Source: Microbacterium hydrocarbonoxydans
GTDB taxonomy: Bacteria; Actinomycetota; Actinomycetes; Actinomycetales; Microbacteriaceae
Direction: 5' to 3'
Assembly: GCF_900105205.1 (NCBI RefSeq)
Contig: NZ_FNSQ01000005.1
Location: 2,294,001-2,358,000, forward strand
Length of the DNA stretch: 64,000 nucleotides
Part shown: positions 40,569-44,967 of the stretch, piece after piece
How positions within the stretch are numbered: position 1 is the first letter of the stretch
How the letters are laid out: each line of letters opens with the position of its first letter
Made by a program: the position numbers and the translations under genes
The notes under the pieces: generated by a model
Databases searched by the model: none
Seen by the model: only the letters and a program-made list of their open reading frames with translations
Told to the model about the DNA's origin: nothing

Positions 40569-42665
40569 GTGACTGATGCCCCGATCGCAGACCGCCGTTC
40601 GACACTCCGCACTCACCACGGCGACACCTTCGACGATCCGTACGAATGGCTGCGCGAGAAGGATGCTCCGGAGGTGATCTCACACCTGGAAGCCGAGAAC
40701 GCGCACACCGAAGCCCAGCTCTCGCATCTCGCCGGCCTCCGCGAGACGCTGTTCCAGGAGATCAAGGGCAGGGTGCAGGAGACCGACCTCTCCGTGCCGA
40801 CCCGGCGCGGCGACTGGTGGTACTACAGCCGCACGGAGGAGGGCGCCCAGTACGGCATCCACTGCCGCACCGCCGCCGCGGAGGGCGACTGGACGCCGCC
40901 CGTGCTCGAGCCGGGCGTCGCCGTGCCGGGCGAGGTCGTGCTCCTCGACGGGAACGCGGAGGCCGAGGGGCACGAGTTCTTCTCCCTCGGAGCCTTCGAC
41001 ACCTCGGACGACGCGACGATGCTCCTCTGGGCGACCGATCACGAGGGCGACGAGCTCTACACGGTGCACGTGCGCGACCTCGCGACCGGCGAAACGCTCG
41101 CCGACGAGATCCCCGACACCGGGGGCGCGTTCTTCACCCCGGACGGCACCGGCATCCTGTACACGACCCGCGACGACGCGTGGCGGCCCGACACCCTCTG
41201 GCTGCACCGCCTCGGCACGCCGGTGTCCGAGGACGTGAAGCTCTTCCACGAGCCGGACGAGAAGTACTGGCTGGGCGCCGGTATCACCCGCAGCCGCAAG
41301 TACCTCGTCATCGCGGTCGGGTCGAGCATCACGAGCGAGGAGTATCTCGTCGACCTCGCAGGCGACCTGACGGCACCCCCTCGGATCGTCTGGCCGCGAC
41401 GCGAAGGCGTCGAGTACTCGCTCGAGCACGCCGTGGTCGACGGCGATGACCGGCTCTACATCCTGCACAACGACGGCGCGCTGGACTTCGAGCTCGTCTC
41501 GGTCGCAGCGTCCGACCCGCAGGGCGAACGACGCGTCGTCCTCCCCCACGAGCCGGGACGACGGCTGCTCGGCATGGATGCCTTCCGCGACTTCGCCACC
41601 GTCGAGTACCGACGCGAGGGCCTCGAACGCGTCGGACTCCTCGATTACGCGACGGATGCCGTCGAGGACATCGTCTTCGACGAGCCGCTGTACTCGGCCG
41701 GCGTGAGCGGCAACCCGGAATGGCATTCGCCCTACCTGCGACTCGGATACACCTCGTTCGTGACCCCGGGCACCGTCTACGAGCTGAACCTCGAGACGCG
41801 CGAGCTGGAGCTGCGCAAGCAGGTCGCGGTCCTCGGCGGCTACGACCCGCTGGACTACGACCAGCGCCGCGCGTGGGCGACGGCATCCGACGGCACCCAG
41901 GTGCCGATCTCGCTGGTGTGGAAGCGGTCCTTCGGCGAGCCGGGCGCCGGCACGCGTCCCGTCCACCTCTACGGATACGGCTCGTACGAGCACTCGATCG
42001 ACCCGGGCTTCTCGGTGGCCCGTCTCTCCGAACTCGATCGCGGCATCGTCTTCGCTGTCGCCCATGTCCGCGGCGGCGGCGAGATGGGCAGGCAGTGGTA
42101 CGAAGACGGCAAGCTGCTCAACAAGCGGAACACGTTCACGGACTTCGTGGCGTGCGCCCAGCACCTCATCTCCGAGGGGATCACGACGCCCGACACCCTC
42201 GTGGCAGAAGGCGGCAGTGCCGGCGGTCTTCTCATGGGTGCTGTGACGAACCTCGCACCCGAGCTGTTCGCAGGGGTGCTCGCGGCCGTGCCGTTCGTGG
42301 ATGCGCTGACCACGATCCTCGACCCCTCGCTTCCCCTGACGGTCATCGAGTGGGACGAGTGGGGCGATCCGCTGCACGGGGCCGACGTGTACGAGTACAT
42401 GAAGTCGTACTCGCCGTACGAGAACGTCCGTGAGGGCGTCGAGTACCCGCGCATCCTCGCCGTGACCTCCCTGAACGACACGAGGGTGCTGTACGTGGAG
42501 CCCGCGAAGTGGGTCGCGGCGCTGCGTGTCGCCGGTGCCTCGGACGCGCTGCTCAAGTGCGAGATGGTCGCGGGACACGGCGGCGTCAGCGGACGCTACA
42601 ACTCCTGGAAGGAACGCGCGTTCGAGCTGGCCTGGATCCTCGACACGGTCGGCCTCGCGGACTGA
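40569..42665 (+). CDS. ptrB: oligopeptidase B (S9A prolyl oligopeptidase family)
   Basis: A 698-residue cytosolic serine peptidase that cuts short peptides after basic residues. The first 70 residues and the seven-bladed propeller (about 70-400) cover the catalytic alpha/beta-hydrolase domain. The nucleophile lies in EGGSAGGLLMG (serine about 549), the aspartate in TSLNDTRVLY (about 637) and the histidine in VAGHGGVSGRY (about 670). The GTG at 40569 follows GTGGAGGC. It is the largest single gene of this island and appears monocistronic, sharing an upstream region with the Pit gene. Confidence 0.93.
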   Translation: MTDAPIADRRSTLRTHHGDTFDDPYEWLREKDAPEVISHLEAENAHTEAQLSHLAGLRETLFQEIKGRVQETDLSVPTRRGDWWYYSRTEEGAQYGIHCRTAAAEGDWTPPVLEPGVAVPGEVVLLDGNAEAEGHEFFSLGAFDTSDDATMLLWATDHEGDELYTVHVRDLATGETLADEIPDTGGAFFTPDGTGILYTTRDDAWRPDTLWLHRLGTPVSEDVKLFHEPDEKYWLGAGITRSRKYLVIAVGSSITSEEYLVDLAGDLTAPPRIVWPRREGVEYSLEHAVVDGDDRLYILHNDGALDFELVSVAASDPQGERRVVLPHEPGRRLLGMDAFRDFATVEYRREGLERVGLLDYATDAVEDIVFDEPLYSAGVSGNPEWHSPYLRLGYTSFVTPGTVYELNLETRELELRKQVAVLGGYDPLDYDQRRAWATASDGTQVPISLVWKRSFGEPGAGTRPVHLYGYGSYEHSIDPGFSVARLSELDRGIVFAVAHVRGGGEMGRQWYEDGKLLNKRNTFTDFVACAQHLISEGITTPDTLVAEGGSAGGLLMGAVTNLAPELFAGVLAAVPFVDALTTILDPSLPLTVIEWDEWGDPLHGADVYEYMKSYSPYENVREGVEYPRILAVTSLNDTRVLYVEPAKWVAALRVAGASDALLKCEMVAGHGGVSGRYNSWKERAFELAWILDTVGLAD

Positions 42666-42707
42666 CCGCGGGGCGTGACCGGCGGGATCCCCCTGCACGT
42701 CCGAGAA

Positions 42708-42772
42708 CAGGACGACCGTCCGGGATCAGGAGGATCTCCGGCAGACCGTCCTGATGCGGAGCGGTCGTCCTG
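42708..42772. repeat. 65-bp palindromic element, copy 1
   Basis: Outer perfect inverted repeat CAGGACGACCG/CGGTCGTCCTG (11 bp) encloses an inner ATCAGGA/TCCTGAT (7 bp). It is 78 percent identical (51 of 65 positions, ungapped) to copy 2 on the other side of the DUF559 gene, with identical spacing of both arm pairs. Confidence 0.85.
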
Positions 42773-42880
42773 ATCCGGGCCGCGCGCTACTCGCCCTCCA
42801 CATTCGGCGCTCGCGGCTGTTCGCTCCACATCGACGGCGCACGGGGCCCGCGGGACCGTGCGCCTGCGCAGACTGGGAGC

Positions 42881-43714
42881 ATGAGGTTGGAGGAGTGGCT
42901 GAACGGGCGCGATGGGGCTGCGCACACCTCCGACATCTACGCGGCGGGCTTCAGCCGACACGCCGTCTCCACAGCCGTCGATTCAAGACGGGTGCTCCGG
43001 CTTCGCCGGTCCTGGATCGCCTCGAAGTCCTGCGATCCTCCGATCCGCGCCGCCATCTCGATCGGCGGACGCCTCACCTGCGTGTCGGCCGCACGACGGC
43101 TGGAGCTCCGGACGCCGGCCGATGACCACGTCCATGCCGCCGTCACACCGACAGCGGCACGATTCGATCCCGACGGGATGCGCGTGCACTGGTCATCCGG
43201 GCCGGCGCCGGTCGGCCGTCATGCCGTCGTCGACCCGCTGATCAACGTGCTGTACGAGGTGGCGCGATGCCAGGAGCCTGCCACCGCGCTCGCGATCTGG
43301 GAGTCCGCTCTCCGCAAGCGCCTGATCGCACCGGAGGTTGTGTCGCGCATCGAATGGCGCAGCGCACGGGCGTCACGAATCGCCGAGGTCGCCGGCGTGC
43401 TGTCCGATTCAGGGCTGGAAAGCCATTTCGTGATGCTGATGCACGCGATCGGCGTGCGCGTCACGCAGCAGGTGTGGGTCGACGGGCATCCGCTCGATGC
43501 GCTGATCGGCGATCTGCTGGCGGTCCAGCTGGACGGGTTCGCCTTTCACAGCGGCGCGGCGGAACGCCGTCGGGACATCGAAGCGGATGCACGGCTGCGC
43601 CTGCGTGGCTACAGTGTGCTCCGATTCGACTACCACCAGGTGCTCTTCCAACCCGAGCTGGTCCAGCCCCTCGTGCGCGCGGCAGTCGCCCAGGGGCTGC
43701 ATCTGCGTGGGTGA
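42881..43714 (+). CDS. DUF559-type nuclease-like protein with AbiEi-like N-terminus
   Basis: A 277-residue protein. The N-terminal third looks like the winged-helix start of AbiEi-like proteins (EEWLNGRDGAAHTSDIYAAGFSRHAVSTAV, residues 4-33). The C-terminal 100 residues match the DUF559/Vsr-like PD-(D/E)XK fold: Glu180 in SGLESHF, Asp206 in PLDALIGDL, Asp218 in AVQLDGFAFHSG, a charged helix, and LRGYSVLRFDYHQVLFQP. The usual acidic residue before Asp218 is Gln216, so catalysis is uncertain. Such genes are plentiful in actinobacteria without a proven role. This one is bracketed by two copies of a 65-bp palindromic element. The ATG at 42881 follows CTGGGAGC. Confidence 0.8.
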   Translation: MRLEEWLNGRDGAAHTSDIYAAGFSRHAVSTAVDSRRVLRLRRSWIASKSCDPPIRAAISIGGRLTCVSAARRLELRTPADDHVHAAVTPTAARFDPDGMRVHWSSGPAPVGRHAVVDPLINVLYEVARCQEPATALAIWESALRKRLIAPEVVSRIEWRSARASRIAEVAGVLSDSGLESHFVMLMHAIGVRVTQQVWVDGHPLDALIGDLLAVQLDGFAFHSGAAERRRDIEADARLRLRGYSVLRFDYHQVLFQPELVQPLVRAAVAQGLHLRG

Positions 43715-43733
43715 GTCCGCATGCGACCGAAAT

Positions 43734-43798
43734 CAGGACGACGGTCCCGCATCAGGAGGATGCGCCGCAGATAGTCCTGATCTCGGACGGTCGTCCTG
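43734..43798. repeat. 65-bp palindromic element, copy 2
   Basis: Arms CAGGACGACGG/CGGTCGTCCTG (10 of 11 paired) and the same inner ATCAGGA/TCCTGAT at the same offsets as copy 1. It starts 20 bp after the DUF559 stop, so it might also end that transcript. Confidence 0.85.
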
Positions 43799-43807
43799 TT
43801 TTCGGGC

Positions 43808-43918
43808 GGTGGACGCAGTGGATGCCGCGGCAGTGACGCCGGTGGATGCAGCGACGGCAGACGCAGCGGATGCTACGGAGGCGGGTGCCGTGGCGGTGGC
43901 TGCCGTGGACGCTGCGTC
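43808..43918. repeat. low-complexity GTGGAYGCNGC tract
   Basis: Degenerate repetition of GTGGATGC/GCAGCG-like units. Read on the plus strand it gives Val-Asp-Ala-Ala strings with no start or homology. It lies between copy 2 of the palindromic element and the pfkA stop. Confidence 0.5.
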
Positions 43919-43938: not shown

Positions 43939-44967
43939 TCAGCCGAAGAGGGCGGCAGCCTCGTCGTAACGACTGCGCGGCACCGTGTTCAGCTCGCCGA
44001 GAGCCTCGGCGAACGGGACCCGCACGATGTCGGTGCCCTGCATGGCCACCATCTGCCCCCACGCCTTGTCGACGATGGCGTCGGCGGCGTGCAGTCCCAG
44101 GCGTGTCGCGAGGACTCGGTCGAACGCCGACGGCGAGCCGCCGCGCTGGATGTGGCCGAGGATCGTCGCACGCGTCTCGATCCCCGTGATGCGCTCGATG
44201 GCGGGCGCCAGCTGGTCGCCGATCCCGCCCAGCCGCGGACGGTTGAAGGCGTCGAGGCCCTTGTCGCTGTAGGCCTCGTCCATCCCGAGCAGCTTGAAGC
44301 CCTCGGAGACGACCACGAGCGGCGCGCGGCCGCGATCGTGCGCGCTCGAGACGAGCTCGCAGATGTCGTCGATCGACATCGGTACCTCGGGGATGCAGAT
44401 GGCGTGCGCTCCGGCGGCCATGCCGGCGTGCAGCGCGATCCAGCCGACGTGGCGCCCCATGACCTCGGCGACCATGCAGCGCTGGTGGGAATCGCCCGTG
44501 GTGCGCAGTCGGTCCATGGCGTCCGTGGCGATGTTCACCGCCGTGTCGAACCCGAAGGAGTAGTCGGTGGCGCGGAGGTCGTTGTCGATCGTCTTCGGCA
44601 CGCCGATGACGTTGATGCCGTCCTTCGCGAGGCGGTCGGCGGCGGCGAGCGTGCCCTCGCCGCCGATCGCGATGATGCCGTCGATCTTGTGTCCGTACAG
44701 GGTCTTGGCGATGTTCTCGGCGCCGCCGCGCTCACCCTCGTAGGGGTTGGTGCGGCTGGTGCCGAGGATCGTTCCGCCGACCTTCGACAGTCCCTTCACC
44801 TCGTGACGGGTCAGGGGGAAGAAGTCGCCGTCGACGACACCTCGCCATCCGTCGCGGATACCGACGAACTCGAGGTCGTACGTGGTGGTGCCCTTGAGCA
44901 CGATGCCGCGGATGACCGCGTTGAGTCCGGGGCAGTCGCCGCCGCTCGTCAGAATGCCGATCTTCAT
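43939..44967 (-). CDS. pfkA: 6-phosphofructokinase
   Basis: Phosphorylates fructose 6-phosphate, the committing step of glycolysis. The 342-residue protein starts MKIGILTSGGDCPGLNAVIRG and has the ATP loop IGGEGTL (residues 101-107). The catalytic PKTIDND spans 124-130 with Asp128, and AEVMGRHVGWIALH and GGSPSAFDR follow. Glycine at the second position of the EG pair together with lysine before TIDND matches the group III pattern associated with ATP rather than pyrophosphate; this should be confirmed by assay. The long leader between it and the helicase gene holds hairpins. Confidence 0.94.
   Translation of the reverse strand: MKIGILTSGGDCPGLNAVIRGIVLKGTTTYDLEFVGIRDGWRGVVDGDFFPLTRHEVKGLSKVGGTILGTSRTNPYEGERGGAENIAKTLYGHKIDGIIAIGGEGTLAAADRLAKDGINVIGVPKTIDNDLRATDYSFGFDTAVNIATDAMDRLRTTGDSHQRCMVAEVMGRHVGWIALHAGMAAGAHAICIPEVPMSIDDICELVSSAHDRGRAPLVVVSEGFKLLGMDEAYSDKGLDAFNRPRLGGIGDQLAPAIERITGIETRATILGHIQRGGSPSAFDRVLATRLGLHAADAIVDKAWGQMVAMQGTDIVRVPFAEALGELNTVPRSRYDEAAALFG

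Follow-up and report, generated by a model that had tools for sequence, protein, structure and literature searches.

A DUF559-type nuclease gene of Microbacterium hydrocarbonoxydans is bracketed by palindromes that track the nuclease lineage

The question raised by this locus is whether a nuclease gene and the two palindromes on either side of it form a unit, or an enzyme and its target, as the first-pass annotation had suggested. The window, meaning the whole 64,000-nucleotide stretch that was analysed, covers C5:2294001-2358000 of the 3.59-Mb genome. The association between gene and palindromes stood up in the comparisons described below; mobility, binding and nicking are what we infer.

A nuclease gene and its two flanking palindromes

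The nuclease gene (42881..43714, plus strand) was defined from its open reading frame, Pfam and an AF2 model, and it encodes a protein of 277 residues. It is a free-standing reading frame with a prolyl oligopeptidase family gene (POP; 40569..42665, plus strand; PF02897 and PF00326) upstream and a convergent phosphofructokinase gene (PFK; 43939..44967, minus strand; PF00365) downstream. The protein scores 21.4 bits against DUF559 (PF04480), above the curated cut-off of 20.6, which places it in that family, and 30.6 bits against MTES_1575 (PF18741), under the 38.2 cut-off of that model. These are its only Pfam matches. The AF2 model (pLDDT 91.1) predicts a two-part architecture. Residues 1-176 (42881..43408, plus strand) have a predicted AbiEi-antitoxin-like fold and are a predicted DNA-binding module. 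Residues 177-275 (43409..43705, plus strand) are predicted to form a Vsr-like nuclease domain with the Vsr-type catalytic fold, its nearest neighbor being the homing endonuclease I-Bth0305I. The invariant residues of this domain are E180, D206, Q216, D218, H223, D232, and D236. The usual DUF559 motif has a glutamate at the position of Q216, so the catalytic activity of the window protein cannot be assumed. A profile search of PDB sequences with the protein gave weak matches only, 3hrl and 3r3p among them. NCBIfam held no match for the protein or for its same-genome paralog in locus L119, and tblastn of the protein against PLSDB gave no evidence of plasmid carriage. The genome contains six PF04480 matches in all, counting the window gene.

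One explanation for such a gene is a defence or addiction cassette, in which invading DNA is what the nuclease cleaves and the palindromes serve as decoys or control sites. The predicted AbiEi-like part is compatible with this role, as is a weak PADLOC AbiEi match (E 6e-4) of the L119 paralog. The window protein itself has no PADLOC match. Pfam identified the three neighbors scanned as the POP peptidase, PFK, and an SNF2-type helicase, and neither an AbiEii nucleotidyltransferase toxin nor a cytosine methyltransferase is among them. A defence cassette is thus very improbable.

The flanking palindromes were delimited by repeat search, alignment, and R1, a covariance model built from 15 palindrome copies of this genome. 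Alignment of these 15 copies gave the 13-bp half-site consensus CCGAGAWCAGGAC, and each palindrome consists of two direct half-sites 19 nt apart, a center of about 15 nt, and two inverted half-sites 19 nt apart. The upstream copy (42701..42779, plus strand, 79 nt) has its first half-site, CCGAGAACAGGAC, at 42701..42713 and its second, 19 nt past the first, at 42720..42732 (both plus strand). The third lies inverted at 42748..42760 and the fourth, also inverted and 19 nt past the third, at 42767..42779 (both minus strand). The downstream copy (43727..43805, 79 nt) is a near-palindrome with a marginally higher score on the minus strand; its half-sites are at 43727..43739 and 43746..43758 (plus strand) and, inverted, at 43774..43786 and 43793..43805 (minus strand). 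The repeat search aligned the two copies at 77% over 75 nt in direct orientation and at 80% over a longer inverted match of 86 nt. Across 79 nt they are identical at 59 positions direct and 64 inverted, and their arms are complementary at 29 and 30 of 39 positions.

The first-pass annotation had drawn two 65-mers, at 42708-42772 and 43734-43798, with 51 of 65 identical bases. Its coordinates and identity count are exact, and the actual element is longer, at 79 nt. The annotation had also stated that the 64 kb contain no further sequence of this kind, which is correct for the window, where R1 at E <= 1 matches these two sites only; 18 further sites lie in the rest of the genome. The R1 E-values of the two copies are 8e-17 and 1e-16, both copies belonging to the training set of the model. 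These values, together with the same bracket around homologs in other species, make a chance origin very unlikely. Between 42500 and 44000, Rfam gave two weak matches, both far below gathering scores, and no canonical promoter or terminator was found, the terminator result being weakened by a loop limit of 8. Past the downstream palindrome, at 43806-43906, imperfect GCAGCGGATGC-like repeats abound.

Bracketing and specificity among relatives

Homologs of the window protein at E <= 1e-10 were found in 114 of 119 Microbacterium genomes, and R1 matches in at least 85 of the 119. The per-genome R1 counts are lower bounds, with at most 38 candidates scored per genome. All 40 genomes that have a close homolog (E <= 1e-67) contain R1 matches. 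At least 45 of the 79 genomes scored without a close homolog still contain them, which means that the palindromes persist after the gene is lost or are the partners of other nucleases. In G107, one of these 79, the terminal part of the gene (81% identity over residues 244-274) is present next to a palindrome where a contig ends. R1 favors its own genome because it was built from its copies, and other palindromes with a similar layout match it as well, at 17 of 60 second-tier loci. At the 30 closest-homolog loci (the window locus included, and L020, a second entry for the window gene, left out), the gene is flanked by R1 matches (E <= 0.05) both upstream and downstream in 25 cases, on a single side in three (L033, L036, and L042), and on neither side in two (L034 and L045). 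None of the five paralog loci of the same genome matches R1. At L031 the reading frame as drawn extends into the downstream palindrome. The first-pass annotation had proposed to ask whether the palindromes cluster beside DUF559 genes, and they do, with the closest homologs in other species, and the window gene among them, flanked on both sides in 25 of the 30 loci; the opposite outcome, a scatter unconnected with DUF559 genes, was not observed.

The palindromes could instead be operators, with the AbiEi-like part bound at the upstream copy to repress the gene's own promoter, the other copies regulatory, and the nuclease turned regulator. The predicted AbiEi-like fold and the conserved half-site spacing described below fit protein binding of this kind, and promoter binding through inverted repeats has been described both for AbiEi, whose repeats are 23 bp long, and for Rv2827c (PMC7319586). 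The position of the second copy past the stop codon in 25 of the 30 loci argues against operators, as do the invariant acidic residues and histidine kept in the nuclease domain and the location of the dispersed copies given in the next section. We regard operators as unlikely.

Flanks were also compared by aligning the 300 nt upstream with the 300 nt downstream of each gene. Scores exceeded the gene-body null maximum of 24 at 80 of 95 genus loci. The closest homologs contribute 26 of their 30 loci to this total, the second-tier genes 52 of their 60, and the paralogs two of their five (L016 and L019 only). The matched flank sequences vary from gene to gene. A second set of 80 named genome loci, some from genomes shared with the first set, had 79 usable members (L292 was too short). 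The flanks of 59 exceeded the 99th percentile of 474 control windows, which were taken from random positions within these loci instead of being centered on real genes between convergent neighbors; 52 exceeded the control maximum, and 20 fell at or below the 99th percentile. The 59 matches were direct in 37 cases and inverted in 22. Genes of the DUF559/MTES_1575 type are frequent among actinobacteria, with PF18741 matches in 65 of 149 sampled genomes. For stand-alone genes from Actinomycetota, flank scores exceeded a cross-locus null at five of the ten loci that were usable (12 tried) and at 11 of 20 more, or 16 of 30, and the other 14 of these 30 loci outside Microbacterium had no matched flanks above the null. 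These loci were picked by gene size, about 280-390 codons from stop to stop, and several came from one genome; L191 and L194 were left out as wrong reading frames, and L211, cut by the contig start, was kept among the 20. The link thus reaches beyond the window gene to many other DUF559-type genes flanked by their own palindromes. Since so many relatives are bracketed by different palindromes, each enzyme likely recognizes, and may spread, its own repeat. The listed relatives of the window gene carry generic names.

The relationship between nuclease and palindrome was measured among genus units, 63 of 94 of which have matched flanks scoring 33 or more. Palindrome similarity above 22 was found in both of the two pairs with protein identity above 80% and in 79% of 28 pairs at 65-80%. 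The fraction was 11% of 175 pairs at 55-65% identity, 10% of 266 at 50-55%, 4 of 110 at 45-50%, 7 of 586 at 40-45%, 2 of 694 at 35-40%, and 0 of 92 at lower identity. Shared ancestry of the flanks can explain part of this trend, and a Mantel test of nuclease against POP plus PFK distances gave a weak correlation of 0.24 with eight duplicate genome records included. The comparison within genomes is the stronger test of specificity. In 17 pairs of different units from the same genome the palindromes are unrelated (SW 8-13; shuffled null median 9, maximum 16), and the median palindrome SW reaches 32.5 in the 30 pairs whose units come from different genomes and encode proteins that are at least 65% identical. 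These data show that the palindrome sequence tracks the nuclease lineage rather than the genome. The bracket and its specificity are nearly certain. The L119 paralog (C5:1623565-1624365) is associated with an unrelated palindrome motif, GGCAAGTCCG, further copies of which occur in five other regions (C5:50299-50435, 151490, 1286687, 3009133, and 3406628).

The palindromes also share a geometry. Among the 63 matched segments, the 55 of 130 nt or less were used, and 41 of these have a direct 6-mer repeat at a lag of 18 or 19 nt, where about 1.3 would be expected per lag. When similar palindromes were linked, 24 sequence types resulted, the largest with 23 members. The 18-19-nt lag is present in 18 of the 24 types, compared to a mean of 1.1 and a maximum of 4 of 24 in 200 shuffling trials. 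One spacing in unrelated palindrome sequences suggests one protein geometry. The lag was found in none of 11 palindromes compared from other actinobacterial groups.

Dispersed copies and the turnover of sites

R1 gives 40 matches in its own genome, corresponding to 20 distinct places that each match on both strands. Two are at the gene and the other 18 are solo copies. The surroundings of 15 of the 20 sites were inspected by eye from lists of reading frames; all 15 are intergenic, the majority being found at the 3' ends of genes or where two genes converge. Thirteen of the 18 solo copies were compared with the gene-flanking copies of the same genome, and all 13 scored SW 29-54; the best flanks of the 29 homologs from other species scored SW 11-41 against the same copies, 27 of them at 29 or less. 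This comparison is biased because the solo copies were found through their likeness to the flanking copies, though the result still fits what recent spread within the genome would give. Two short solo arrays of three copies each, at C5:497386-497727 and C5:1327336-1327881, have near-constant spacings of about 128 and 230 nt, respectively, which suggests that they arose by tandem duplication of palindrome plus spacer.

The states of orthologous sites were read at two gaps. The POP-PFK gap hosts 24 of the 30 closest homologs. It was read in 40 further genomes, six of which have a close homolog elsewhere, and 36 were judged. Seventeen have short gaps of 11-299 bp without an R1 match, a few with other hairpins (L145, for example). 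Three have a solo R1 palindrome (L157, L161, and L162), one has a weak match (L142), and L177 is in an undefined state. The other 14 contain another gene: ten of a second MTES_1575-like type (N2), three of type N3, and one other. Two of the ten N2 genes were scanned with Pfam and both match PF18741 below cut-off. L169, the one N3 gene scanned, has no Pfam nuclease match, and the N3 genes are possibly a further Vsr-like family. Both N3 genes tested have matched flanks. The flanks of nine of the 12 genes tested at this gap match with scores of 32-52, and those of L152, L153, and L179 score 28, 26, and 17; these 12 were scored without a null of their own. The N3 genes (L163, L169, and L178) encode about 325 residues, look nuclease-like by eye, and share an 'ESDGYGKY' motif. 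Different Vsr-like or nuclease-like genes occupy this gap according to species (L148, L152, L153, L156, L159, L163, L169, L173-L176, L178, and L179), several of these genes carry their own palindromes, such as TGTCCCACTT..AAGTGGGACA, and this convergent gap is a landing hotspot.

The second site, a gap between histidine kinase and reductase-like genes, was read in 30 genomes. It is 614 bp with three solo copies in the M. hydrocarbonoxydans genome and 23 bp in the best-scoring relative, G013. Eight relatives have 1.2-1.4 kb in this gap, all eight with another DUF559-type gene whose end matches score 25-57 (L353, L355, L356, L360, L361, L363, L364, and L370). Twenty others, G013 included, have 243 bp or less, one with a weak R1 match (L365) and a few with other hairpins; L352 was not judged. 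The genes in this convergent gap are of a DUF559-type subfamily with an EADGxENH-like motif, and most have CTGTCGGGAG-type palindromes.

Relatives therefore exhibit three states, bare, solo-palindrome, and gene-bracketed, which are interleaved on a tree of 90 loci (82 without duplicate genomes). The empty sites in relatives that the first-pass annotation had proposed to look for exist in both forms, without the gene and without the element. The solo palindrome of G064 (L157) scores SW 56 and 63 against the palindromes that bracket the gene of a close relative, G027, and does not match the palindromes of the other unit in G064. Orphan palindromes of this kind remain in the POP-PFK gap of G020 (L161) and G064, neither of which gave a close nuclease homolog. 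The pairs L162/L167 and L157/L032 differ in state and lack clean ends, and we did not detect a clean insertion junction or target-site duplication, the marks of an insertion sequence or MITE, in close pairs or in an all-against-all comparison of the loci.

These site states bear on the idea that the palindromes are ordinary bidirectional terminators kept by selection, with the nuclease a passenger in permissive convergent gaps. The strong predicted hairpins, the location at 3' ends, and a TTTT within half-site 4 of the downstream copy agree with termination, and the palindromes may have an added role as terminators. Several orthologous convergent gaps of 6-32 bp have no such palindrome, the terminator scan above is weak evidence in the same direction, and the palindrome sequence follows the nuclease lineage and not the genome. 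There is little chance that termination is the whole explanation.

A second idea is REPIN-like movement, in which the palindrome is excised and inserted in hairpin form, with this nuclease or an unlinked enzyme doing the cutting, and the gene is a resident, domesticated helper. The concentration of 24 of the 30 closest homologs at one locus fits a resident gene. The same two sites host different nuclease lineages in different species, so gene cassettes turn over too. Nucleases of the PD-(D/E)XK type hydrolyze DNA without a covalent intermediate, which leaves strand transfer unexplained. A Y1 (RAYT-type) transposase was also not found: PF01797 has no match in the genome, in a search that found matches in 5 of 14 genomes as a control. 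The layout otherwise is that of a REPtron, one resident gene with two flanking copies and dispersed extragenic copies (PMC3733652, PMC3116915). We consider such movement doubtful, at about the level given to operators.

Known systems and a proposed explanation

The best reading is a partnership like that of REP/REPIN elements with RAYT (TnpA-REP), in which an unrelated nuclease of the Vsr type takes the place of RAYT and would bind and cut the palindrome and lead to its copying. As in REPtrons, extragenic palindromes are dispersed in one genome and bracket one resident gene (20 sites, two of them at the gene), and each gene lineage has a repeat sequence of its own. The RAYT protein belongs to the Y1/HUH transposases, whereas the bracketed gene here encodes a predicted AbiEi-like part and a Vsr-like nuclease and has no PF01797 domain. 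REPs are 20-40 bp long, whereas the palindromes here contain four 13-bp half-sites in about 79 nt. REP families carry a GTAG or CGTC tag on 20-40-bp hairpins, and the CGTC-tagged families have been reported without a dedicated transposase (PMC3733652). They resemble the present elements as dispersed palindromes without RAYT and differ as short hairpins mostly of alphaproteobacteria, a likeness that is drawn from their description (PMC3733652).

Other systems share one part of the protein. I-Bth0305I is a Vsr-like homing endonuclease; the window gene differs in its free-standing position between two genes and its AbiEi-like fusion, and its presumed target appears to flank it instead of containing it. 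The AbiEi antitoxins of the type IV toxin-antitoxin system AbiE share the fold predicted for residues 1-176 and bind inverted repeats (PMC7319586), but the window protein has an extra nuclease domain and no toxin partner among the neighbors scanned. Unlike the very-short-patch-repair endonuclease Vsr, it has no cytosine methylase among those neighbors, and no mismatch role is indicated. VsrA of Caulobacter crescentus, a Vsr-like protein that also has a DUF559 domain, is linked to DNA damage in cells, triggering the SOS response in a methylase mutant, and is tied to a solitary cytosine methylase in Caulobacter (PMC12907096). The string 'palindrom' does not occur in the searched part of that source. 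Among the titles listed by our search of the open-access literature, none reports a tie between DUF559 genes and flanking palindromes.

The co-occurrence, the specificity, the shared geometry, and the turnover at sites agree with the view that an enzyme and its target are kept together, as RAYT and REPIN are. We propose that the protein binds and cuts its own four-half-site palindrome and that repair copies the palindrome, and we give this partnership an even chance of being correct. The AbiEi-like part would read the half-sites, and the Vsr-like nuclease would nick or cut at the palindrome, either as a double strand or as an extruded hairpin. Repair of the break, by gene conversion or another form of copying, would spread the palindrome to other intergenic sites, and at times the whole cassette would be copied into such sites. 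Recombination between the two palindromes would delete the gene and leave a solo copy. This division of labor among AbiEi-like binding, Vsr-like cutting, and copying by repair is in our judgment evenly poised between right and wrong.

More broadly, and somewhat less probably, the stand-alone AbiEi-Vsr nucleases could be undescribed, phylum-wide selfish elements, each maintaining and spreading a private multi-half-site palindrome. Convergent gaps would then be battlegrounds where rival cassettes land, scar, and replace one another, and the RAYT/REPIN way of life would have been invented a second time, independently, with a homing-endonuclease fold. The cognate palindromes give DUF559/MTES_1575 genes a testable substrate and account for a class of intergenic repeats. 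They also add a second case in which populations of repeats go with a single resident gene, this time one for an unrelated enzyme, and they supply many natural pairs of nuclease and target from which DNA recognition could be learned.
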